Assembly: GCF_023507705.1 (NCBI RefSeq)
Contig: NZ_JALBGD010000007.1
Location: 1 to 64,000, forward strand
Origin: Stappia sp. WLB 29
GTDB taxonomy: Bacteria; Pseudomonadota; Alphaproteobacteria; Rhizobiales; Stappiaceae
Length of the DNA stretch: 64,000 nt
Direction of reading: 5' to 3'
Shown here: in pieces, positions 3,601 to 38,481 of the stretch
Numbering within the stretch: position 1 is the first letter of the stretch
How the letters are laid out: the number at the start of each line of letters is the position of its first letter
Made by a program: the position numbers and the translations under genes
The notes under the pieces: generated by a model
The model's database searches: none
What the model was told of the DNA's origin: nothing
What the model saw: only the letters and a program-made list of their open reading frames with translations

Positions 3601-5010
3601 TCAGCTTTCGCCTACTCCCTCGCCGGTGCGGCTGAGACCGAGGCGCGCCATCTTCTCGTTAAGGGTGCGGCGGGGCAGATCGAGTTCGTCCAGCACCGGG
3701 GCGATGCGCCCGTCGTGGCGGCGCAGCGCATCGACGATGACGCGCCGCTCGTAGTCCTCCATCAGGTCGCGCAGGCGTCCGCGCGGCGCCCCTTCCGCGC
3801 CCGGAGCCGCGCCGGTGACGAGATCGCGCAGCGAAGGCGCGCCCATCGGCGCGTTGAGCACGAAACGCTCGGCGGCATTGCGCAATTCGCGGACATTGCC
3901 CGGCCACTCGTGCGCCGCCAGGAAGCCGGCATCGTCCGGCGACAGGGCGACGCCGTCGATGCCGTATTCGGCCGTGAAGCGGTTGACGAAACTGTCGAAC
4001 AGCAGGCGGATGTCGCCGCCGCGCTCGCGCAGGGGCGGGATGCGGATCTCCACCGCGTTGAGCCGGTAGACGAGGTCCTGTCGCATCAGGTTCTCCGCCA
4101 CCGCCTGCCGCGGATCGACATTGGCCGCGCTGATGATGCGGATGTCGACGGGCACCGCCGAGCGGCCGCCGATGCGGTCGACCTCGCGCTCCTGCAGCAC
4201 GCGCAGGAGCTTGGGCTGCAGGGCGAGCGGCATGGAGGGGACTTCGTCGAGGAACAGCACGCCGCGGTCGGCCTGTTCGATCCGCCCTACCCGGCTGCGG
4301 TCGGCGCCGGTGAAGGCGCCCGCCTCGTGGCCGAAGAGCTCCGCCTCGACCATGGTCTCGGGAAGCGCCGCACAGTTGAGCGCGACGAAGGGTGCGTCGG
4401 CGCGGGGCGACAGGTCGTGCAGGGCCCGCGCCACCACTTCCTTGCCGGTGCCGGTCTCGCCGATGATCATCACCGAAGCGTCGGTGCGGGCGAAATGGCC
4501 GATCTGCTCGCGCAGGCGGACCATGGCGGCGGATTCGCCGATGAGGCGGGCGGACAACCCGCTCATGTCGCTGAGCCGGCGGCTGAGCGCGCGATTTTCC
4601 AGCACCAGCCGGCGGTGGCCGGTGGCGCGGCGGACCATCGCCGCCAGCATGTCCGGGTCGAAGGGCTTTTCGATGAAGTCGGCGGCGCCGTGGCGCATCG
4701 CCTCCACCGCCATCGGAACGTCGCCATGGCCGGTCATCAGGATCACCGGCAGGTCCGGGTCGATCTGCTTGACCCGCCGCAGCAGCTCCAACCCGCTGGC
4801 GCCGGGCAGCAGCACGTCGGAGATGACGCAGCCGGGAAAGTCCGGACCAAGGCGCGACAGCGCGGTCTCCGCATCCACCGCCTCGACCGGATCGAAGTCG
4901 GCGAGCCGCATCCACTGGCGCAGGCCTGCGCGCATCGACGGGTCGTCGTCGACAACGAGCACCGGCGTGCGCTTGTCCGCCGCGGCGTGGCGATCGCTGT
5001 CGATGGTCAT
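3601..5010 (-). CDS. dctD: C4-dicarboxylate response regulator DctD (sigma-54 activator)
   Basis: 469-aa NtrC-class regulator. The receiver domain (residues 17-130) has the acidic pocket D21-D23, phospho-acceptor D65 and conserved K115. The AAA+ domain has Walker A GETGTGK (184-190), the sigma-54 contact loop GAFTGA (231-236) and Walker B ending in DE (251-256). A Fis-type helix-turn-helix closes the C-terminus. The start MTIDSD at 5010 is chosen because the ORF extension upstream is Arg-rich shadow sequence overlapping dctB. It lies 34 nt after dctB and is surely co-transcribed with it. Confidence 0.92.
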   Translation of the reverse strand: MTIDSDRHAAADKRTPVLVVDDDPSMRAGLRQWMRLADFDPVEAVDAETALSRLGPDFPGCVISDVLLPGASGLELLRRVKQIDPDLPVILMTGHGDVPMAVEAMRHGAADFIEKPFDPDMLAAMVRRATGHRRLVLENRALSRRLSDMSGLSARLIGESAAMVRLREQIGHFARTDASVMIIGETGTGKEVVARALHDLSPRADAPFVALNCAALPETMVEAELFGHEAGAFTGADRSRVGRIEQADRGVLFLDEVPSMPLALQPKLLRVLQEREVDRIGGRSAVPVDIRIISAANVDPRQAVAENLMRQDLVYRLNAVEIRIPPLRERGGDIRLLFDSFVNRFTAEYGIDGVALSPDDAGFLAAHEWPGNVRELRNAAERFVLNAPMGAPSLRDLVTGAAPGAEGAPRGRLRDLMEDYERRVIVDALRRHDGRIAPVLDELDLPRRTLNEKMARLGLSRTGEGVGES

Positions 5011-5044: not shown

Positions 5045-6994
<1,950 letters not shown>

Positions 6995-27561: not shown

Positions 27562-28854
27562 CTACCACAGCCGGTCGCGCAGGGCGAACCAGCTCATCGC
27601 CAGCACCAGGATCGGCCAGCGGAAGGCCCGCCCGCCCGGAAATTTCGGCGGCGACAGCTGCGCGAACACATCGAACCGCTCCGTATCGCCCAGCATGGCG
27701 CAGGCGGCCGCATGGCCGCAAAAGCCGGCCATCGCCACGCCGTGGCCGGAAAAGCCCGCCGCCACATAGACGCCGGGCGCGGTGCGCCGCAGGCAGGGCA
27801 TGCGCGAGGTGGTGACGCCGAGCGTGCCGCCCCAGACATGGGAGACGGGGGCCGTGGCGAGCTGCGGATAGACATTGCTCAGATGCGAGCGCACGAAAGC
27901 GCGCAGGTCCGGCGGGAAGCCGCGCCGATAGGTCTCGCCGCCGCCGAACAGAAGCCGCAGGTCGCGGGTCAGGCGCCAGTAGTAGACGACGAAGCGGCTA
28001 TCGGAGACGGCCTCGCGGCCGGGAATCAAGTGATCTGCCGCCTCGCGCGACAACGGCTCGGTGGTCAGGATGTAATTGTTGATCGGCATGACCCGGGCCT
28101 CGCTGTCGCGGTCGAGCCCGGCGAGATAGCCGTTGCCGGCCAAAAGCACGCTGCCGGCGTCGATCTCGCCCTGCCCGGTCTCGACCGCCACCCGCCCTCC
28201 TGCATGCCGCAGCGAGATGGCATGGGTCGCCTCGTGCAGGACGGCACCGGCCGCCTCAGCCGCATCGGCGAGCCCCTGGGCGAGTTTCAGCGGATGCAGA
28301 TGCCCCGCCCCGCCGTCGCGCGTGCCGCCGAAATAGCGCTTGGTGCCGATGGCCGCCGCCAGCTGGGCGCGGTCGAGCGGCGTGACCGCGTCATACCCAT
28401 AGTCGCGGGCGAGCTTTTCGGCATAGGCCCACTCCTCGGCGACGAACCGCTCCTTATGGGCGGCGTGGATGAGGCCTTCCGTCCAGTCGCAGTCGATGCC
28501 GAAGCGCTGCATACGGTCGTGCAGCAGGGCCTTCGCCTCCTCGGCGAAGGTCCAAAGCCGGCGGGCGGTGTCGAGGCCGTACTGCTTTTCCAAATGCACC
28601 TGGTCGCGCCGCTGGCCGCTGTGCAGCTGGCCGCCATTGCGCCCGCTGGCGCCCCAGCCGATGCGGTTCTGCTCGATCAGGACGACCGAGCGGCCCGCCT
28701 CGGCCAGGGTGATCGCCGCGTTGAGCCCGGTGAACCCGCCGCCGACGATGGCAACGTCCGCCCGCACCGCGCCGGCCAAGGCAGGCCGGGCCGGGCGGTC
28801 GTCGACGCTCGCCGCGTAGTAGGAGGGGGCATGGGCGCTGGCGATCTCGGTCAC
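27562..28854 (-). CDS. puuB: gamma-glutamylputrescine oxidase-like FAD oxidoreductase
   Basis: 430-aa DAO-family flavoprotein. The N-terminal Rossmann motif VAIVGGGFTGLNAA (about residues 34-47) binds FAD, and GASGRNGGQLHSGQR is the characteristic second FAD segment of PuuB-like enzymes. It oxidises gamma-glutamyl-putrescine to the aldehyde with H2O2 release. The start codon is GTG with GGGAGG 7 nt upstream. It lies in a minus-strand run with the aminotransferase and the PuuA-like ligase, supporting the polyamine role. The C-terminal Trp-rich stretch is unusual but short. Confidence 0.86.
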   Translation of the reverse strand: MTEIASAHAPSYYAASVDDRPARPALAGAVRADVAIVGGGFTGLNAAITLAEAGRSVVLIEQNRIGWGASGRNGGQLHSGQRRDQVHLEKQYGLDTARRLWTFAEEAKALLHDRMQRFGIDCDWTEGLIHAAHKERFVAEEWAYAEKLARDYGYDAVTPLDRAQLAAAIGTKRYFGGTRDGGAGHLHPLKLAQGLADAAEAAGAVLHEATHAISLRHAGGRVAVETGQGEIDAGSVLLAGNGYLAGLDRDSEARVMPINNYILTTEPLSREAADHLIPGREAVSDSRFVVYYWRLTRDLRLLFGGGETYRRGFPPDLRAFVRSHLSNVYPQLATAPVSHVWGGTLGVTTSRMPCLRRTAPGVYVAAGFSGHGVAMAGFCGHAAACAMLGDTERFDVFAQLSPPKFPGGRAFRWPILVLAMSWFALRDRLW

Positions 28855-28925: not shown

Positions 28926-30323
28926 TCAGGCCGCCAGACGGCCGTCCTTCTTGAGCGCTGCATAGGTCTCGTCGAGGGTGCGCTCGGCGCGTGCGACCAG
29001 TTCGTCCGCCTCCTCATGGGTCAGCACCAGCGGCGGCGAGATGATCATGCTGTCGCGCACGGCGCGCATGACCAGCCCGTTGCCGAAGGAGATGTCGCGG
29101 CACAGCGTGCCGACCTCGCCGACGGGCGCGAACTTGCGCGTGCGATCGCCCTTGGCCGGCACCAGCTCCAGCGCGCCGACGAGACCGACCATGCGCGCCT
29201 CGCCGACCAGCGGATGGTCGCCCAAGGCCTTCCAGCGCTTCTGCAGATAGGGACCGATATCGTCCGCCACCCGCTCGACCAACCGCTCGCGCACCATGAT
29301 GTCGAGATTGGCGAGCGCGGCCGCGCAGCAGGCCGGATGACCGGAATAGGTATAGCCATGATAGAACTCGCCGCCCTTGGCGATGAAGACGTCGGCGACC
29401 CGGTCGGCGATCATCACGCCGCCGATCGGCAGGTAGCCGGAGGACAGGCCCTTGGCGATGGGCATCAGGTCGGGCTCGATGCCGTAATGCTGCGAGCCGA
29501 ACCAGCTGCCCAGGCGCCCGAAGCCGCAGATCACCTCGTCGGCGACCAAGAGGATGTCGCGCTCGCGGCAGATGCGGGAAACCTCAGGCCAGTAGCTGTC
29601 CGGCGGGATGACGACGCCGCCCGCGCCCTGGATCGGCTCGGCGATGAAGGCCGCCACCTTGCCCTCGCCGAGGACATCGATGGCCCGCTCCAGCTCGCGC
29701 GCCGCCCACAGGCCGAACTCGTCCGGCGACATCGCGCCGCCTTCGCCGAACCAGTAGGGCTGGGGAATGTGATGGACGCCGGGCACCGGCAGGTCGCCCT
29801 GCGCATGCATGCCGGTCATGCCGCCGAGGCTGGTGCCGGCGAGCGTGGAGCCGTGATAGCCGTTCCAGCGGCCGATGATCGTCTTCTTCTCCGGCTTGCC
29901 CATCAGGTCCCAATAGGTGCGGACCATGCGGAACACCGTGTCGTTCGCCTCCGAACCGGAGGAGGTGAAGAAGACGCGGTTGAACTGCGGCGGGCTGAGC
30001 TGAGCCAGGCGCTCGGACAGGGCGATGACCGGCGGATGGCTGGTCTTGAAGAAGGTGTTGTAATAGTCGAGCTCGCGCATCTGCTTCTCGACCGCATCGA
30101 CGATCTCGCCGCGACCATGCCCGACCTGGCAGCACCACAGGCCGGCCATGCCGTCGAGATAGCGGTTGCCGTCGCTGTCGGTCAGCCACACTCCTTCGGC
30201 CGAGGTGATGACGCGCACGCCCTCCCGGTTCAGCGCCCCCGTATCGGTGAAGGGGTGGAAATGGTGCGCAGCATCGCGGGCGCGCAGGTCTGCGGTCGGG
30301 TAAAGGTTCGAGGCACCGGTCAT
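28926..30323 (-). CDS. class-III aminotransferase, polyamine type (SpuC-like)
   Basis: 465-aa PLP aminotransferase. The PLP lysine is in LMPIAKGLSSGYLPIGG, the cofactor Asp in LLVADEVICGFGRLG, and the N-terminus has the LDGMAGLWCCQVGHGR signature of the putrescine/beta-alanine:pyruvate group. SpuC-type enzymes transfer the amino group of putrescine to pyruvate, giving 4-aminobutanal. The location between puuB-like and puuA-like genes supports a polyamine substrate, but omega-amino acids cannot be excluded. GGGAGA precedes the ATG. Confidence 0.85.
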   Translation of the reverse strand: MTGASNLYPTADLRARDAAHHFHPFTDTGALNREGVRVITSAEGVWLTDSDGNRYLDGMAGLWCCQVGHGRGEIVDAVEKQMRELDYYNTFFKTSHPPVIALSERLAQLSPPQFNRVFFTSSGSEANDTVFRMVRTYWDLMGKPEKKTIIGRWNGYHGSTLAGTSLGGMTGMHAQGDLPVPGVHHIPQPYWFGEGGAMSPDEFGLWAARELERAIDVLGEGKVAAFIAEPIQGAGGVVIPPDSYWPEVSRICRERDILLVADEVICGFGRLGSWFGSQHYGIEPDLMPIAKGLSSGYLPIGGVMIADRVADVFIAKGGEFYHGYTYSGHPACCAAALANLDIMVRERLVERVADDIGPYLQKRWKALGDHPLVGEARMVGLVGALELVPAKGDRTRKFAPVGEVGTLCRDISFGNGLVMRAVRDSMIISPPLVLTHEEADELVARAERTLDETYAALKKDGRLAA

Positions 30324-30378: not shown

Positions 30379-31776
30379 TCAGACGTTGAGCAGCAGGTAT
30401 TCCCGCTCCCATGGGCTGATGACCTTCATGAAGGTCTCGAACTCTTCCTGCTTGATGGCGCGGTAGGTGGCGACGAACTTCTCGCCGAACACGTCGATCA
30501 GCTCCTCGCACTCGCCGAACAGCGCGACCGCCTCCAGCAGGCCGCGCGGCAGGGCGTGCATGTCCTCGCTGAAATTGCCGCTGCGCGGCTCGTCCGGCGT
30601 CAGGCGCTGCTTGATGCCGAGATAGCCGCAGGCGAGCGAGGCGGCGATGGCGAGATACGGGTTGGCGTCCGAGGACGGCACGCGGTTCTCCAGCCGGCGG
30701 GCGCCGGGCTTCGAGTTCGGCACGCGCAGGCCCACCGTCCGGTTGTCGTAGCCCCAGTGGACATTGACCGGCGCCGTGGTGCCGCGGGTGAAGCGGCGGT
30801 AGGAATTCACGTAAGGCGCCAGGATGCAGGTCACCGCCGGCAGGAAGGCCTGGTGGCCGGCGATGAAGGAGAGGAACTCGCTCGTCGGCTCGCCGTCGTC
30901 GCGCGAGAAGATGTTGGTGCCCTTCTCCGCGTCCATCACCGACTGGTGGATGTGCATGGACGAGCCGGGCTGGTTCGACATCGGCTTGGCCATGAAGGTG
31001 GCGTACATGTCGTGGCGCAGCGCCGCCTCGCGGATCGTGCGCTTGAACAGGAACACCTGGTCGGCAAGCTCCAGCGGATGGCCGTGCCGGAGATTGATCT
31101 CCATCTGCGCGGCGCCTTCCTCGTGGATCAGGGTGTCGATCTCCAGCCCCTGCGCCTCCGACAGGTCGTAGATGTCGTCGATCAGGTCGTCGAACTCGTT
31201 GAGTGCGGAGATCGAATAGGACTGGCGGCCGACCTCCGGCCGGCCCGAGCGGCCGGTCGGCGGCTCCAGCGGATAGTCCGGGTCGGTGTTCGGGCGGACG
31301 AGATAGAACTCCATTTCCGGGGCGACCAGCGGCGTCCAGCCCTCGTCCTCGTAGAGCTGCAGCACGCGCTTGAGCACGTTGCGCGGCGCCGTCTCCACCG
31401 GAATGCCCTCGCGGGTATAGGCGTCGTGGATGAGTTGGGCGGTCGGATCGCTCTCCCAGGGCACGGTGGTCAGCGTCGAATAGTCGGCGCGGAAGAACAG
31501 GTCGCCGTCGGTCGAATTGTGCTGGAAGCGCTCGTCGTCCGGCGGATAGTCGCCGGAAATGGTCTGGGCGAAGATCGAGGCGGGCATCGTCATCACCGGT
31601 CCGGAGAAGAACTTCTCCGTCGGCATCATCTTGCCGCGCGCCACGCCGGCGAGATCGGGCACGATGCACTCGATGTCCTCGATCCCGCGTTCGGACAGCC
31701 ATAGCTGGGCCGCGTCGAAGCTCTCGACGCCCCGGCGGCTGGCAATCTTCGGTGCGGATTTCTTCTTCTTGCTCAC
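30379..31776 (-). CDS. puuA: gamma-glutamylputrescine synthetase-like (glutamine synthetase family)
   Basis: 465-aa member of the glutamine synthetase fold. It has the beta-grasp N-terminus, then a catalytic domain with EMEFYLV, the His motif GSSMHIHQS, RFTRGTTAPVN and the Glu/Arg motif RRLENRVPSSDANPYLA. PuuA ligates glutamate to putrescine with ATP, the entry step of the Puu pathway. The start is GTG at 31776 (VSKKKK), with AAAGGCGAG upstream. The operator-like GTGATCAC site lies about 80 nt upstream. A second paralogue is divergently encoded across the gntR gene. Confidence 0.87.
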   Translation of the reverse strand: MSKKKKSAPKIASRRGVESFDAAQLWLSERGIEDIECIVPDLAGVARGKMMPTEKFFSGPVMTMPASIFAQTISGDYPPDDERFQHNSTDGDLFFRADYSTLTTVPWESDPTAQLIHDAYTREGIPVETAPRNVLKRVLQLYEDEGWTPLVAPEMEFYLVRPNTDPDYPLEPPTGRSGRPEVGRQSYSISALNEFDDLIDDIYDLSEAQGLEIDTLIHEEGAAQMEINLRHGHPLELADQVFLFKRTIREAALRHDMYATFMAKPMSNQPGSSMHIHQSVMDAEKGTNIFSRDDGEPTSEFLSFIAGHQAFLPAVTCILAPYVNSYRRFTRGTTAPVNVHWGYDNRTVGLRVPNSKPGARRLENRVPSSDANPYLAIAASLACGYLGIKQRLTPDEPRSGNFSEDMHALPRGLLEAVALFGECEELIDVFGEKFVATYRAIKQEEFETFMKVISPWEREYLLLNV

Positions 31777-31851
31777 GGGTCTCGCCTTTCGGGCGCAGGG
31801 CGGGCGGGGCAGCGGGCGCCTGCCTGCCTCCTCACCGCGCGGACTGCATTT

Positions 31852-31865
31852 TGTGATCACATTTT
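31852..31865. promoter_or_regulatory. GntR operator candidate, copy 1
   Basis: TGTGATCACATTTT: a perfect GTGATCAC palindrome at 31853-31860 followed by ATTTT. It lies upstream of the puuA-like gene and downstream of the gntR stop. The same 13 nt recur at 32645-32657. Confidence 0.7.
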
Positions 31866-31886
31866 CATCGAGTCAATCGCCGGCGA

Positions 31887-32600
31887 TCATTCGGCGACCG
31901 ACGGCCCGGCATCGGGAAGTCCGGTGTCGAGCAGATCCATTCCGCAGCGGATGTCCGCCGCCACCGCCTCCCGCAGGGCCGCAGCATCGCGGGTCCGCAC
32001 GGCCTCGATCGCCTCCTTGTGGTGGTCGACGAGGGCAAAGGTCCCCACCCGCCCGTAGACGGTGCGCATGAACGGGGCGAACTGCAACCACAGACTTTCG
32101 ACCAGAGGCAGCAGCACCTGCGAGCCAGCCGCACGGTAAATCATGAAGTGAAAGGAATGGTTGAGACGCATGTAGGTCTCCGCATCCCCGCCATCGAGAC
32201 TGGCGTCGATCCGGTCGTCGATGGCGGCAAGGCGTGCTGCATCGCGCGGTCCCAGTCGCGCCGCCGCGGCCTGCGCCAGTTCCGGCTCCAGCAGGAGGCG
32301 CGCCTTGACGATCTCGGCCAGGCGCGGCGGCGTCATGGTCGGAACCTGGATGCGGCCGTTGGCGCGGATTTCCAGCGCATGGCCGGCCGCCATCGCCCGC
32401 ACCGCCTCGCGCACCGGCATCGGGCTGACCTTGAGCTCCTGCGCCAGGCCGCGCAGCGTGACGGCGCGCCCCGGAACGAAGCGGCCGGTCAGCAGCGCCT
32501 CGCGCAGCGCCTCCTCGACCGTATCGCGCAGCGAGTGCCGGCCGGGTGCAGGCGGATCCTGCAGGTCTTTCGCCTGTTGCGGTCGGCTTTGGCCAGCCAT
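31887..32600 (-). CDS. GntR family regulator (FCD/FadR-type)
   Basis: 237-aa regulator. The N-terminal winged helix (about 25-90, with LRGLAQELKVSPMPVREAVRAMAA) is the classic GntR recognition region. The C-terminal FCD helical domain (about 100-225) has the metal-binding Asp/His positions of the family around LNHSFHFMIY and DHHKEAIEAV. Ligand binding normally releases DNA. It is encoded inside the polyamine cluster, between two copies of the same operator-like palindrome, so a polyamine or its gamma-glutamyl derivative is the likely signal; that is an inference. Confidence 0.9.
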   Translation of the reverse strand: MAGQSRPQQAKDLQDPPAPGRHSLRDTVEEALREALLTGRFVPGRAVTLRGLAQELKVSPMPVREAVRAMAAGHALEIRANGRIQVPTMTPPRLAEIVKARLLLEPELAQAAAARLGPRDAARLAAIDDRIDASLDGGDAETYMRLNHSFHFMIYRAAGSQVLLPLVESLWLQFAPFMRTVYGRVGTFALVDHHKEAIEAVRTRDAAALREAVAADIRCGMDLLDTGLPDAGPSVAE

Positions 32601-32644
32601 TTGCCTCGTTCCCTCCCGGCCTTGCTTGACAGCCTTGCCGCTAC

Positions 32645-32658
32645 GTGATCACATTTTT
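32645..32658. promoter_or_regulatory. GntR operator candidate, copy 2
   Basis: GTGATCACATTTTT at the divergent gap between gntR (minus) and the second puuA-like gene (plus). A repressor bound here would control both, giving autoregulation. Confidence 0.72.
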
Positions 32659-32708
32659 GCGTAAACGGCAATTCGCGCGGACGGCAAGTTCGCGCCCTGG
32701 AGGATCCG

Positions 32709-34100
32709 ATGTTGCAGACCCATCGCACGGCCTGGCAGCGCCCGGCCGGCGGCGTCGACTGGCAGGAAGAGGTGGCCCGCTTCGAGGCGGAGTATCCCGA
32801 CCTCGACACGCTGGAGGTGATCCTGCCCGACAGCAACGGGGTTCTGCGCGGCAAGTGGCTACCCGGCAGCGCGCTGCGCAAGGTGTTCGAAAACGGCGTC
32901 GCCCTGCCCTTCTCGCTGTTCGGCCTCGATGTGTGGGGCCGCGAGGTCGAAGAGACCGGCATGCATATCGAGACCGGCGACAAGGACGGCGTGTGCTGGC
33001 CGGTGCCCGGCTCGCTGCGCGCCGTGCCCTGGGCCGAGCGCCCGACCGCGCAGGTGCTGCTGTCGATGCACGACCGCGACGGCAGCGCCTTCATGTGCGA
33101 TCCGCGCCATGTGCTGGCGCGCAAGGCCAGCCGGCTCGGCGAGCACGGATTGACGGCGACGGCGGCCTTCGAGCTGGAATTCTATCTGTTCGAGGACAAG
33201 GACGACGGCGACTGGAGCAGTGCGCCGACGCCGGTCTTCTCCACCCATCTCGGTCCGGCCCGGCAGAACATGTATGCGCTGTCCGACCTCGAGGCCTTGA
33301 TGCCGCTGGTCGACGAGATCCGCCGCTCGGCCGATGCGCAGGACATTCCGGCCGATGCCGCCGTCTCCGAGGCCGCGCCCGGGCAGTTCGAGCTGAACCT
33401 TCATTATCAGCGCGATCCCTTGCGCGCCGCCGACGACGCGGTGCTGCTGCGCCGGCTGGTCGCAGGCGTTGCCCGCAAGCACAATCTCAAGGCCTCGTTC
33501 ATGGCCAAGCCCTTCGTCGAGTGGCCGGGCAACGGCATGCATGTGCATGTCTCGATGGAGGACGGCACGGGCAACATCTTCGCCGACCCGGACACCGGCG
33601 AGGCGCGGCTCGGCTACGCGATCCGCGGGCTGCTCGACACGATGCCGGAGGCGCACCTGCTGTTCGTCTCCACCTTCAACGGCTTCCGCCGCATGCAGCC
33701 GGGTTCCTATGCCCCGACCTCGATCTGCTGGGGCTACGACAACCGCTCGGTGGCGCTGCGCGTCCCGGCCGGAACGCCGGCCTCCGCACGCATCGAGCAC
33801 CGGATCGCCGGAGCCGACGCCAATCCGTATCTGGTGCTGACCGGGGTGCTGGCGGGGATGATGCAGGGCGTGCTCGGCGAATTGCCGCCGCCGCCGGCGG
33901 TTGACGGCAATGCCTACGAGAAGACCGCCCCGCGCCTGACGCCGTGGATGGACGAGGCGATCGACGCCTTCGCCGCCTCCCAGCGGATGAAGGACGCGGT
34001 CGGCGAGGAAATGCACAAGGTACTGGTCGACATCAAGCGTCATGAACTCTTCGCGTTCGGGCGCGAGATTTCGTCGCTGGAACGGCAGACCTACCTGTGA
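32709..34100 (+). CDS. second gamma-glutamyl-polyamine synthetase-like protein
   Basis: 463-aa glutamine synthetase family protein with all catalytic landmarks: ELEFYLFE, the His motif GNGMHVHVS, and the C-terminal ARIEHRIAGADANPYLV. It is clearly diverged from the ligase at 30379 and begins with its own N-terminal domain. Being the first gene upstream of potFGHI, it couples uptake to ligation and may use another polyamine or amine (for example spermidine or ethanolamine). GGAGGA lies 6 nt before the ATG. Named PuuA-like, specificity unresolved. Confidence 0.85.
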   Translation: MLQTHRTAWQRPAGGVDWQEEVARFEAEYPDLDTLEVILPDSNGVLRGKWLPGSALRKVFENGVALPFSLFGLDVWGREVEETGMHIETGDKDGVCWPVPGSLRAVPWAERPTAQVLLSMHDRDGSAFMCDPRHVLARKASRLGEHGLTATAAFELEFYLFEDKDDGDWSSAPTPVFSTHLGPARQNMYALSDLEALMPLVDEIRRSADAQDIPADAAVSEAAPGQFELNLHYQRDPLRAADDAVLLRRLVAGVARKHNLKASFMAKPFVEWPGNGMHVHVSMEDGTGNIFADPDTGEARLGYAIRGLLDTMPEAHLLFVSTFNGFRRMQPGSYAPTSICWGYDNRSVALRVPAGTPASARIEHRIAGADANPYLVLTGVLAGMMQGVLGELPPPPAVDGNAYEKTAPRLTPWMDEAIDAFAASQRMKDAVGEEMHKVLVDIKRHELFAFGREISSLERQTYL

Positions 34101-34322: not shown

Positions 34323-35414
34323 ATGAAGAAGCTGCTGTTCACCAGCGTCGCAATGCTCGGCGTACTTGCCGCCACCGCGGCGTCCGCCCAGGATCGGGAA
34401 GTGCGCGTCTACAACTGGTCGGACTATATCGACGAATCCGTGCTCGAGGAGTTCACCAAGGAGACCGGCATCAAGGTCGTCTACGACGTGTTCGACAGCA
34501 ACGAGATGCTGGAGACCAAGCTGCTGGCCGGCGGCACCGGCTACGACGTCGTCGTGCCGACCGGAACCTTCCTCGGCCGCCAGATCCAGGCCGGCGTGTT
34601 CCAGAAGCTCGACAAGTCGAAGCTGCCGAACCTGGAGAACATGTGGCCGGAGATTTCGGCCCGCATCGAGAAGTTCGATCCGGGCAACGAGCACGCCATC
34701 AACTACATGTGGGGCACCACCGGTTTCGGCTACAATGTCGACAAGATCAAGGAGCGCATGCCCGACGCCCCGCTCGACAGCTGGGACATGATCTTCAAGC
34801 CGGAAGTGATCTCCAAGTTCGCCGATTGCGGCGTGCACCTGCTCGACACCGCGGACGAGATTTTTCCGGCGGCGCTGAACTATCTAGGGCTCGATCCCGA
34901 CAGCGGCGATCCGGAAGACTTCGCCAAGGCCGGCGAACTTCTCATGAAGATCCGTCCCTACATCCAGAAGTTCCACTCGTCGGAATACATCAACGCGCTG
35001 GCCAATGGCGACATCTGCCTGGCCGTGGGCTGGTCCGGCGATGTGCTGCAGGCGCGCGACCGCGCGGCCGAGGCCGACAACAACGTCACGGTCGAATACG
35101 TCATCCCCAAGGAAGGCGCGATGATGTGGTTCGACAACATGGCGATCCCGGCCGATGCCCCGCATGTGGAGGAGGCGCATGCCTTCCTCAACTTCATCAT
35201 GAAACCGGAAGTCATCGCCAAGGCGACCAACTACGTCTTCTACGCCAACGGCAACAAGGCGAGCCAGGAGTTCGTCGACAAGGAAGTTCTGGACGATCCG
35301 GCGATCTATCCGAGCGAGGAGACGGTCGAGAACCTGTTCACCACCACCACCAAGTCGCCCCAGGCCATGCGGGCACGCACCCGCGAGTGGACCCGGGTCA
35401 AGACCGGCCAGTAA
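34323..35414 (+). CDS. potF: polyamine ABC transporter substrate-binding protein
   Basis: 363-aa periplasmic protein. The signal peptide (1-22) ends ASAQ. The mature start VRVYNWSDYIDESVLEEFTKETGIKV is the PotD/PotF signature, with the WSDYI aromatic/acid residues that line the polyamine pocket. The start MKKLLF at 34323 has GGAGGG upstream; the longer ORF is leader. It is followed by a strong hairpin and then potGHI. Putrescine specificity is inferred from PotF-like length and neighbours. Confidence 0.92.
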   Translation: MKKLLFTSVAMLGVLAATAASAQDREVRVYNWSDYIDESVLEEFTKETGIKVVYDVFDSNEMLETKLLAGGTGYDVVVPTGTFLGRQIQAGVFQKLDKSKLPNLENMWPEISARIEKFDPGNEHAINYMWGTTGFGYNVDKIKERMPDAPLDSWDMIFKPEVISKFADCGVHLLDTADEIFPAALNYLGLDPDSGDPEDFAKAGELLMKIRPYIQKFHSSEYINALANGDICLAVGWSGDVLQARDRAAEADNNVTVEYVIPKEGAMMWFDNMAIPADAPHVEEAHAFLNFIMKPEVIAKATNYVFYANGNKASQEFVDKEVLDDPAIYPSEETVENLFTTTTKSPQAMRARTREWTRVKTGQ

Positions 35415-35480: not shown

Positions 35481-36629
35481 TTGGCCAAGAAACCGATCGG
35501 GCCGGTGCGCCGCGACTTCGCACCCTGGGACGACCCGCAGGCGAAGCCGTATATCGAATTCAGGAACGTTACCAAGACCTTCGGCGACTTTACCGCCGTC
35601 GACAACCTTTCCCTCAAGATCTACGAGCGCGAGTTCTTCGCCCTGTTGGGCGGCTCCGGCTGCGGCAAGACGACGATGATGCGCATGCTCGCCGGCTTCG
35701 AGACGCCGAATGCGGGCGAGATCTTTCTCGACGGACAGAACCTGGCCGGCGTGCCGCCCTACAAGCGCCCGGTCAACATGATGTTCCAGTCCTACGCGCT
35801 GTTTCCGCACATGAGCGTGGAGGCGAATGTCGCCTTCGGCCTCAAGCAGGAGGGCATGCCGAAGGACCAGATCGCCGCGCGCGTGGAGGAAATGCTGAAG
35901 CTGGTGAAGCTCCAGGATTTCGCCAAGCGCAAGCCGCACCAGCTGTCCGGCGGCCAGCGGCAGCGCGTCGCGCTGGCCCGCTCGCTCGCAAAGAAGCCCA
36001 AGGTGCTGCTGCTCGACGAGCCGCTCGGCGCGCTCGACCGCAAGCTGCGCGAGGAAACCCAGTTCGAGCTGACCGACCTGCAATACGAGCTCGGCATGAC
36101 CTTCCTGATCGTCACCCATGACCAGGAAGAGGCCATGACCATGGCCGATCGCATCGCCGTCATGGACCGTGGGCGGATCATCCAGATCGCGACGCCGGCG
36201 GAGATCTACGAGCTGCCGAACTCGCGCTTCGTGGCCGATTTCATCGGCGATATCAATCTGATGGAATGCAAGGTGGCCGCCAAGGAGGGCGAGATCTGCC
36301 GCATGACGTCGGTCGAGTTCGGCTGCGAGATCGAGGTGGCGCAGCCGGTCGAGGCCGGCATCGGCGAGACGGTGTGGTTCGCGATCCGGCCCGAGAAGGT
36401 TCGCATCTCCTTCGACGAGCCGGAAAGCCGTGTCAACGCGGTGACGGGCGAGGTCTGGGACATCGCTTATCTCGGCGACGTCTCGATCTACCACACGCAT
36501 ATCGCCAACGAGCAGACCGTGCGGGCGACGGTCGCCAACCGGTCGCGCGTCGTGGAACGGCCGGTCGGCTGGGACGACAAGGTCTGGCTGTCCTGGGACG
36601 CGGATGCCGGGGTGGTTCTGACGAAATAG
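35481..36629 (+). CDS. potG: polyamine ABC transporter ATP-binding protein
   Basis: 382-aa ABC ATPase. Walker A is GGSGCGKTT, the Q loop lies near FQSYALFPH, the signature is LSGGQRQRVALAR, Walker B LLLDEPLGALD, and the H loop is in IVTHDQEEA. A C-terminal TOBE/OB regulatory domain (about 290-380) is present, as in PotA/PotG. The start is TTG at 35481 (MAKKPIG) preceded by AGGGGG; the rare start codon may lower expression relative to PotF. Confidence 0.93.
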   Translation: MAKKPIGPVRRDFAPWDDPQAKPYIEFRNVTKTFGDFTAVDNLSLKIYEREFFALLGGSGCGKTTMMRMLAGFETPNAGEIFLDGQNLAGVPPYKRPVNMMFQSYALFPHMSVEANVAFGLKQEGMPKDQIAARVEEMLKLVKLQDFAKRKPHQLSGGQRQRVALARSLAKKPKVLLLDEPLGALDRKLREETQFELTDLQYELGMTFLIVTHDQEEAMTMADRIAVMDRGRIIQIATPAEIYELPNSRFVADFIGDINLMECKVAAKEGEICRMTSVEFGCEIEVAQPVEAGIGETVWFAIRPEKVRISFDEPESRVNAVTGEVWDIAYLGDVSIYHTHIANEQTVRATVANRSRVVERPVGWDDKVWLSWDADAGVVLTK

Positions 36630-36680: not shown

Positions 36681-37607
36681 ATGCCCGAGCAGGTGAGCAC
36701 GAGACCCAGGCGCAGCCTCGGCGGCTGGTTGCTGATCGCCGTGCCCTATGCGTGGCTGCTGTTCTTCTTCCTGGCCCCGTTCTTCATCGTCTTCAAGATC
36801 TCGCTGTCGGAGATCGCCGTCGCGATCCCGCCCTACATGCCGACCTTCGATCCGGCGGACGGCTGGAACGGGCTCGTCGAGCTGGTCGGCGGGCTGTCCT
36901 TCGACAATTACGTCTGGCTGACCCAGGACGACCTTTACTGGAAGTCCTACATCTCCAGCGTCTCGATCGCGGCGATCTCGACGCTGATCACGCTGCTGGT
37001 CGGCTTTCCGATCGCCTACGGCATGGCGCGCGCGCCGAAGGAATGGCGCACGACGCTGCTGATGCTGGTGATCCTGCCGTTCTGGACCAGCTTCCTGATC
37101 CGCGTCTACGCCTGGATCGGCATCCTGAAGAACGAGGGCCTGCTCAACCAGTTTCTCCTGTGGCTGGGGCTGATCGACCAGCCGCTGACGATCCTCAACA
37201 CCAACCTCGCGGTCTATATCGGCATCGTCTACTCATACCTGCCGTTCCTGGTGCTGCCGCTCTACGCCAACCTGGAAAAGCTCGACACCAGCCTTCTGGA
37301 AGCGGCCGCGGACCTCGGCTGCCCGCCGTGGCGCAGCTTCTGGACGATCACCGTGCCGCTGGCGATCCCGGGCGTCATCGCCGGCTGCTTCCTGGTCTTC
37401 ATTCCGGCCGTCGGCGAGTTCGTCATTCCGGACCTGCTGGGCGGGTCTGAGACGCTGATGATCGGCAAGACGCTGTGGATGGAGTTCTTCACGAACCGCG
37501 ACTGGCCGGTCTCTTCGGCGGTTGCCGTCATTCTCCTGCTCATCCTGGTGGTGCCGATCGTGCTCTTCCAGAACCAGCAGCAGAAAGCCGCGGAGAGAGG
37601 CCTGTGA
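36681..37607 (+). CDS. potH: polyamine ABC transporter permease PotH
   Basis: 308-aa inner-membrane permease with six predicted segments, first at about residues 16-37. The EAA loop is visible as LLEAAADLGCPPWRSFWTITVPLAIPG, which docks onto PotG. GGGAGA precedes the ATG. It is 51 nt after potG in the potFGHI operon. Confidence 0.92.
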   Translation: MPEQVSTRPRRSLGGWLLIAVPYAWLLFFFLAPFFIVFKISLSEIAVAIPPYMPTFDPADGWNGLVELVGGLSFDNYVWLTQDDLYWKSYISSVSIAAISTLITLLVGFPIAYGMARAPKEWRTTLLMLVILPFWTSFLIRVYAWIGILKNEGLLNQFLLWLGLIDQPLTILNTNLAVYIGIVYSYLPFLVLPLYANLEKLDTSLLEAAADLGCPPWRSFWTITVPLAIPGVIAGCFLVFIPAVGEFVIPDLLGGSETLMIGKTLWMEFFTNRDWPVSSAVAVILLLILVVPIVLFQNQQQKAAERGL

Positions 37608-37659
37608 GCACCCGACCGACAAGGCCGCACGCGGCCGGCGCGCGCGAAAGGACGGCACG

Positions 37660-38481
37660 ATGAGACAGGGACCGAGCTGGTTCAACGTCACCTCGCTGGT
37701 GCTGGGATTTTCGTTCCTGTACCTGCCGATCGTGCTGCTGGTGATCTACTCGTTCAACGACTCGCGGCTCGTCACCGTGTGGGGCGGCTTCTCGACGAGA
37801 TGGTACGGAACGTTGCTGGGCAACCAGCAGCTCCTCGACGCCGCCTGGGTGACCGTGCGGGTCGCCTTCGCCTCGGCGACCATCGCCACGGTGCTGGGCA
37901 CGCTGGCCGCGCTGGTTCTGGTGCGCTCGGGCCGGTTCGCCGGCCGCAGCCTGTTTTCCGGCATGGTCTACGCGCCCTTGGTGATGCCGGAGGTGATCCT
38001 GGGCCTGTCCTTGCTGCTGCTCTTCGTCGCCATCGACCAGGCTCGCGGCTTCTGGACCATCATGATCGCGCATACGACCTTCGCCATGTGCTACGTGGCG
38101 GTGGTGGTGCAGTCGCGCCTTGCCGGCTTCGACCGGTCGCTGGAGGAAGCGGCGCAGGACCTCGGCTGCCCGCCGGCGCGCACCTTCCTTTCGATCACCC
38201 TGCCGATCATCCTGCCCGGCGTCGTCGCCGGCTGGATGCTGGCCTTCACCCTGTCGCTGGACGACCTGGTCATCGCCAGCTTCACCACCGGGCCGGAAGC
38301 GACGACCCTGCCGATGAAAATCTACTCGCAGGTGCGCCTCGGCGTGACGCCGGAGATCAACGCGATCTGCACGATCCTGGTCGGCGTGGTAACGGTGGTG
38401 GTGGTCTTCACCTCGCTGCTGACCAAGCGGCGCGAAGTTCGGCGCGCGCAGGACATGCGGCAGGCGGAAGCGCAAGCCTGA
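37660..38481 (+). CDS. potI: polyamine ABC transporter permease PotI
   Basis: 273-aa permease with six predicted segments. The EAA loop SLEEAAQDLGCPPARTFLSITLPIILPG and the downstream SLDDLVIASFTTGPEATTLPMKIYS are classic of PotC/PotI proteins. The start MRQGPSW at 37660 has AAAGGA upstream; the longer ORF overlaps potH in another frame. Last gene of the operon; it ends 20 nt before the convergent AsmA-family gene. Confidence 0.92.
   Translation: MRQGPSWFNVTSLVLGFSFLYLPIVLLVIYSFNDSRLVTVWGGFSTRWYGTLLGNQQLLDAAWVTVRVAFASATIATVLGTLAALVLVRSGRFAGRSLFSGMVYAPLVMPEVILGLSLLLLFVAIDQARGFWTIMIAHTTFAMCYVAVVVQSRLAGFDRSLEEAAQDLGCPPARTFLSITLPIILPGVVAGWMLAFTLSLDDLVIASFTTGPEATTLPMKIYSQVRLGVTPEINAICTILVGVVTVVVVFTSLLTKRREVRRAQDMRQAEAQA

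Follow-up and report, generated by a model that had tools for sequence, protein, structure and literature searches.

Gene content of the locus

The window (the whole stretch of DNA analysed, 64 kb in length) comes from Stappia sp. WLB 29, whose genus belongs to the order Hyphomicrobiales. Near its centre lies a gene for a GntR-type regulator, designated gntR here, which is placed between two divergent arms of genes resembling those for polyamine breakdown and uptake:

27562..28854, minus strand: FAD-dependent oxidoreductase, puuB-like (39% to E. coli PuuB)
28926..30323, minus strand: class-III aminotransferase, spuC-like (34% to E. coli PuuE)
30379..31776, minus strand: puuA1, glutamine-synthetase-like ligase (PF00120; 36% to E. 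coli PuuA; presumed GTG start at 31776)
31887..32600, minus strand: gntR, 237-amino-acid regulator with GntR winged HTH and FCD domains (PF00392, PF07729)
32709..34100, plus strand: puuA2, second gamma-glutamylputrescine-synthetase-like ligase (39% to E. coli PuuA)
34323..35414, plus strand: potF-like polyamine-binding protein (best NCBIfam match PotF, below its cut-off)
35481..36629, plus strand: potG-like ATPase (above the TIGR01187 potA cut-off; best score with the PotG model)
36681..37607, plus strand: potH-like permease (best NCBIfam match PotH, below its cut-off)
37654..38481, plus strand: potI-like permease (best NCBIfam match PotI, below its cut-off; start chosen within the ORF)

The products of both puuA1 and puuA2 score below the NCBIfam GGputSyn cut-off.

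A repeated palindrome on both sides of gntR

An earlier note on this DNA had described an identical palindromic 13-mer flanking gntR, and exact copies of GTGATCACATTTT were indeed found at 31853-31865 and 32645-32657. The search for further copies which the note proposed was run on the whole genome (4,745,415 bases; 4.75 Mb) and returned these two exact copies and no third; with up to 2 mismatches allowed, a single place with 1 mismatch was found, on contig C33. The palindromic character held for the conserved core shared by both sites, GTGATCAC, and not for the ATTTT extension, which is kept merely as an A/T-rich flank in the window and 41 relatives. The predicted operator is accordingly the palindrome, rather than the full 13-mer, and two such sites were delimited, with 792 bp between their centres:

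31852..31861, no strand assigned: operator O1 (predicted), a perfect palindrome reading TGTGATCACA, in the gap separating the end of gntR (31887) from the start of puuA1 (31776)
32644..32653, no strand assigned: operator O2 (predicted), reading TGTGATCACG in the gntR sense, in the divergent region bounded by the starts of gntR (32600) and puuA2 (32709)

Predicted sites are thus present in the control regions of both arms, the puuB/spuC/puuA-like arm and the arm of puuA2 and potFGHI.

The note had also held that two such copies are very unlikely by chance, an argument which proved weak when drawn from the window by itself. In first-order Markov sequences of the window's composition, identical 13-mers with an 8-bp palindrome lying within 1 kb of each other arose at a mean of 1.08 pairs per 64 kb, with at least one pair in 22 of 40 simulated windows, and the real window holds two; a search allowing up to 3 mismatches found 6 places against 4.59 expected. 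Repeats of this kind are not rare in simulated windows, and a chance repeat without function would be compatible with the statistics of the window alone.

Conservation of the sites

Genome contigs were scanned with the GntR protein, giving 44 loci, of which 41 were close (52-95% GntR identity over the best segment) and 3 distant (21-27%). The close loci were mostly from Stappia, Roseibium/Labrenzia, Pannonibacter, Breoghania and their kin, together with some MAGs under broader names, the closest relative being Stappia indica (95%). With up to 1 mismatch allowed, each of the 41 close loci (6.6 kb) held two TGTGATCACA-like sites and no more, with gntR between them; the 3 distant loci held none at this threshold. 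O1 reads TGTGATCACA in 41/41 relatives. At O2 the first nine bases, TGTGATCAC, are constant in the window and the 41 relatives, the tenth base varies (T in 21, G in 18, A in 2 and C in 1) and is followed by T in 41 of the 42 sequences; O2 was therefore observed to depart from the palindrome in a conserved manner (mostly G or T, then T). The gene order spuC-puuA1-gntR / puuA2-potF is shared by 40 of the 41 loci, and in the exception (L048) the puuA2 query matches the puuA1 place only. Candidate sites in both control regions, conserved together with the cluster, support the earlier proposal that GntR exerts polyamine control over both arms.

The association was then assessed in 397 genomes of the order by a GntR profile search combined with a motif scan. 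A GntR profile match at E <= 1e-40 was obtained in 134 genomes and WWTGTGATCACAWW was present in 111; the motif occurred in 72 of the 76 genomes with a GntR match at E < 1e-70 compared to 39 of the 321 others (Fisher p = 4.9e-45, a value which is only nominal because the genomes are related). The window's own family was represented by 20 genomes; GntR and the motif were both present in 19 of them and both absent from one (G377). Outside the family, all 57 genomes with a strong GntR match (E < 1e-70) were examined at one locus each, up to 800 bp from the matched gntR segment (just 375 bp being available on one side in L132). GTGATCAC was found upstream in 40 and downstream in 49 of these loci, on both sides in 35, downstream only in 14, upstream only in 5 and not at all in 3, giving at least one site in 54/57, while 11 control palindromes built from the same half-site letters reached a maximum of 3/57 on one side and never occurred on both.

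Of the 14 downstream-only genomes, 12 carry two downstream copies. In L114 (8101 and 8125) and L128 (10163 and 10186), which have no operator upstream of gntR, two operators stand in tandem between gntR and puuA1 at a distance of 23-24 bp.

It is the conservation which makes the operator pair significant, since GTGATCAC brackets gntR within 800 bp in all 41 close relatives and the control palindromes do not behave in this way. Nine bases are invariant at two places in the window and its 41 relatives and the flanks vary; a chance repeat was rejected on these grounds, and its probability is considered negligible.

Against a simple pairing of regulator and motif stand the 3 of 57 genomes with a strong GntR match (E < 1e-70) without operators beside gntR, and the 39 of 321 genomes which carry the motif without a strong match. 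In some of the latter, weaker GntR homologues adjoin the motif (L107-L109, L111), and paralogues may therefore share it. In L111, a genome with a weak match only, the palindrome at 5648 precedes a paralogous GntR gene (42% identity), so that a sister regulator may share the operator.

At the level of the class, 13 genomes out of 289 had a GntR match at E <= 1e-50, one of them being the genome of the window. Beyond the order, 7 of 17 loci (12 genomes) carried GTGATCAC within 800 bp of gntR and 10 did not, with bracketing on both sides in two (L142 and L146). In these two loci GntR homologues of 38-40% identity are bracketed by GTGATCAC (at 1126, 2253 and 2277 in L142 and at 1394 and 2232 in L146) and have puuA- and puuC-like neighbours. 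Plasmid records gave no match at E <= 1e-35.

The palindrome could also be bound by another factor, such as a PuuR homologue, a CRP-like protein or a global regulator. A PuuR homologue is present in the window's genome, and the TGTGA/TCACA of the palindrome is similar to CRP half-sites. CRP half-sites are usually separated by a 6-bp spacer, however, which the palindrome lacks; no TGTGATCACA site (up to 1 mismatch) was found in 19 kb around the PuuR homologue (L155); and the motif tracks GntR across the 397 genomes and flanks gntR itself. Binding by another factor is accordingly thought improbable, and GntR is the preferred candidate.

Promoter-like elements at the predicted operators

Promoter-like elements were sought around both sites:

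31848..31876, minus strand: sigma-70-like puuA1 promoter, TTGACT-17-CAAAAT, the sole promoter-like match in 31700-32800 (1.1 kb)
32626..32631, plus strand: TTGACA, likely -35 of the puuA2-pot promoter, the -10 of which would fall in O2
32666..32671, minus strand: TTGCCG, likely -35 of the gntR promoter, the -10 of which would fall in O2

In the puuA1 promoter, O1 takes up eight bases of the spacer and the first two of the -10 element. On either side of O2, both -35-like boxes keep a fixed offset in the window and 41 relatives, with TGTCAA (the other strand of TTGACA at 32626-32631) retained in 41-42 of 42 sequences per base and TTGC (32671-32668) in 39-41 of 42, and the bases between these boxes and O2 vary. 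With a 17-nt spacer after each -35 box, one -10 hexamer would fall in each half of O2. As these hexamers (TCACAT and TCACGT) are poor matches which were not called by the promoter scan of 31700-32800, the -10 boxes at O2 are put forward as candidates. The conserved imperfection of O2 (T at +10 in 41/42) could be accounted for by the -10 hexamers occupying its halves, the deviating arm having a second role, perhaps as the -10 of gntR.

An operator placed over a -10 element or spacer usually blocks polymerase. GntR might instead act as an activator of the two arms, but O1 extends over spacer and -10 bases of the puuA1 promoter, and -10 elements are expected at the position of O2, leaving this alternative with a small probability; repression is the favoured mode of action.

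Distal sites and the probable extent of the regulon

Distal regions were chosen by hand among the matches listed for genomes with a strong GntR match and among the loci retrieved, giving 12 in total (five from G337, two from G256 and one each from G137, G027, G230, G149 and G001). In all 12 of these chosen regions the site adjoins a gene of a type to be expected for polyamine breakdown, although several of the targets belong to broad families (aldehyde dehydrogenase, FAD oxidoreductase) which are not specific to polyamines. Sites were found beside aldehyde dehydrogenase genes (L101, L103, L104, L105 and L106), a puuA-like ligase (L102), a class-III aminotransferase (L100), an agmatinase with a puuB-like oxidoreductase (L129), and an amidotransferase followed by an aldehyde dehydrogenase (L128). 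FAD oxidoreductases adjoin sites in L114 and L128, the latter having a succinate-semialdehyde-dehydrogenase-like gene on the other side. These kinds of enzyme correspond to steps expected in polyamine breakdown. At least 9 sites each were counted in G121, G150 and G198, and at least 6 in G254.

In L099 a gene whose product has saccharopine-dehydrogenase domains and no NCBIfam match is preceded, at a distance of approximately 145 bp, by an operator at 1562. The product presumably resembles homospermidine synthase, and polyamine synthesis may therefore join the regulon.

Against this reading, copies of TGTGATCAC occur inside spuC and potF in L096, and the site in L112 adjoins no recognised polyamine gene.

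A wider regulon in the window's own genome was considered and rejected. The other 8 WTGTGATCAC places all lie in open frames of at least 110 codons (open frames in GC-rich DNA need not be genes), and within 1.5 kb of these places and of the C33 place with 1 mismatch, a search at E <= 1e-4 found no homologues of E. coli Puu proteins or of the window's cluster; a 7-kb region examined around the C33 place showed a distant aminotransferase only (31-35% to spuC/PuuE). For these reasons the regulon looks local in this strain.

A second GntR/FCD-like paralogue (32% identity) is encoded in the same genome on contig C5 (L157:4868-5524); TGATCA occurs in two stretches a short way upstream of it, at 4595 and 4610.

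The regulator protein

The gntR product matched PF00392 with 44.2 bits (cut-off 27) and PF07729 with 83.4 bits (cut-off 24.3), placing it by its domains in the FadR (FCD) subfamily of the GntR superfamily. The PuuR family combines an HTH with a cupin domain; no domain other than GntR and FCD was found in the gntR product at E <= 0.001, in agreement with the earlier note, which had set this regulator apart from the cupin/HTH protein PuuR. An AlphaFold model from a 15-sequence alignment had a mean pLDDT of 85.2.

The HTH residues T48, R50 and G51 are kept in 41/41 close relatives and in at least 53 of the 54 operator-bearing loci outside the family, and the 3 operator-less loci read S-T-R-V, T-L-Q-G and S-L-R-S at positions 48-51. 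The FCD metal site usually consists of an Asp and three His. In the gntR product the corresponding positions, assigned by motif without superposition, are N147, H151, H194 and D216, each kept in all 41 close loci and in 56 or 57 of the 57 outside loci. We take D216 to stand in place of the usual third metal His, and effector chemistry may therefore differ.

According to Suvorova et al. (PMC4494728), FadR-subfamily operators are A/T-rich palindromes with GT/AC boxes spaced by 3 or 2 nt, most HutC sites having 4 nt. The predicted operator, TGT-GATC-ACA with A/T flanks in 42 sequences, fits the A/T-rich GT/AC palindrome of the subfamily, but its GT/AC spacing is 4 nt, a predicted feature which is unusual for an FCD protein of the FadR subfamily. 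In the same paper 3 nt is called typical, not obligatory, and off-consensus motifs were left out (PMC4494728), so that a 4-nt spacing is compatible with FadR membership.

Proposed mechanism

Taken together, we think it quite likely that gntR encodes an FCD-type repressor which binds TGTGATCACA, controls its own gene and represses both polyamine uptake and gamma-glutamylation-type catabolism; a conserved predicted operator precedes uptake as well as catabolic genes, as would be expected of a local polyamine-pathway repressor. Probably bound as a dimer to each site, the protein would lie at O1 over the core promoter from which the catabolic operon puuA1-spuC-puuB is transcribed, and at O2 over the -10 regions, which are proposed to overlap, of the promoters driving gntR and, divergently, puuA2-potFGHI; because of this overlap, one site could shut both of the latter promoters. 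An accumulating polyamine or gamma-glutamylated intermediate would be bound by the FCD domain and the repressor would leave the DNA, turning on uptake and gamma-glutamylation-type breakdown together.

A GntR tetramer might alternatively bridge O1 and O2 and repress by forming a DNA loop of approximately 0.8 kb containing its own gene. Looping is thinkable because Atu1419 (PMC7797058) is an FCD tetramer which binds 10-bp palindromes and loops 190 bp, and because bracketing is conserved in 41/41 close and 35/57 outside loci. However, the O1-O2 spacing is variable (754-1139 bp in the window and 41 relatives; 742-1145 bp in the 35 outside loci with sites on both sides), sites lie on one side only in 19/57 genomes, and two control regions, one per operon, would also explain the brackets simply. 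A test of helical phasing gave no clear signal (resultant 0.26-0.28, n = 42 related sequences). A loop is thus held to be rather unlikely, and separate occupation of the two sites by the repressor is preferred.

The operator pair is real and well conserved, and the regulator is a probable polyamine repressor with a new regulon of a familiar kind. What is unusual is the 4-nt spacing and the bracketing with a possibly shared -10 at O2. A more ambitious proposal, which we regard as doubtful in its entirety, is that an undescribed FCD-GntR runs a polyamine regulon over much of Hyphomicrobiales and in places beyond, taking in uptake, gamma-glutamylation, aldehyde dehydrogenases, agmatinase and possibly homospermidine synthase, by means of a 4-nt-spaced palindrome unusual for FCD proteins which in the window's kin supplies the -10s of two face-to-face promoters, and that the protein, as a tetramer, may hold the gene encoding it in a DNA loop.

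Marine and root-associated bacteria use polyamines as sources of nitrogen and carbon. In the open-licence literature, among the matches listed, neither a GntR polyamine regulator like this one nor a regulator of polyamine breakdown in Hyphomicrobiales was found, although an earlier description is possible, and TGTGATCACA together with GntR was not found in that literature. The analysis provides a concrete candidate regulator-operator pair with a testable regulon and an example of an unrelated repressor apparently running a Puu-like cluster, and the deviant spacing together with the shared HTH signature offers material for GntR recognition rules.

Comparison with known systems

The E. coli puu system likewise has a local regulator, PuuR, inside a gamma-glutamylputrescine cluster with divergent arms, and the window holds homologues of PuuA (39% and 36%), PuuB (39%) and PuuE (34%). 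PuuR represses the puuAP and puuDRCBE operons (PMC9397018). Unlike PuuR, the window's regulator is a GntR/FCD rather than an HTH-cupin protein, and transport is represented by PotFGHI-like proteins in place of PuuP; homologues of PuuC, PuuD, PuuP and PuuR were not found in the 64-kb window at E <= 1e-4. The best reading of the sequence data is that GntR would do the job of PuuR at this cluster with an unrelated protein. The genome also encodes, on another contig (L155:8850-9398, contig C32), a homologue of PuuR, 35% identical along its length to the E. coli protein; its neighbours are genes for Pot-type ABC transport and for a class-III aminotransferase other than that of the cluster. The replacement would therefore apply to this cluster only and not to the whole cell.

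E. coli McbR/YncC is the closest solved structure by both sequence and fold (26% identity, TM 0.80); it is not known to be linked to polyamine genes. Atu1419 (VanR-type) was among the top Foldseek matches, with approximately 21% identity to the window's GntR. It is likewise an FCD GntR repressor with 10-bp palindromes, two of them over -10 boxes (PMC7797058); it differs in its operator, ATGTATACAT, with a GT/AC spacing of 2 nt, and in its location in a region for hydroxycinnamic-acid degradation. HypR of Sinorhizobium is likewise a GntR-family local catabolic repressor in an alphaproteobacterium (PMC5343134), and differs in having hydroxyproline as substrate and a GT/AC spacing of 2 nt (PMC4494728).
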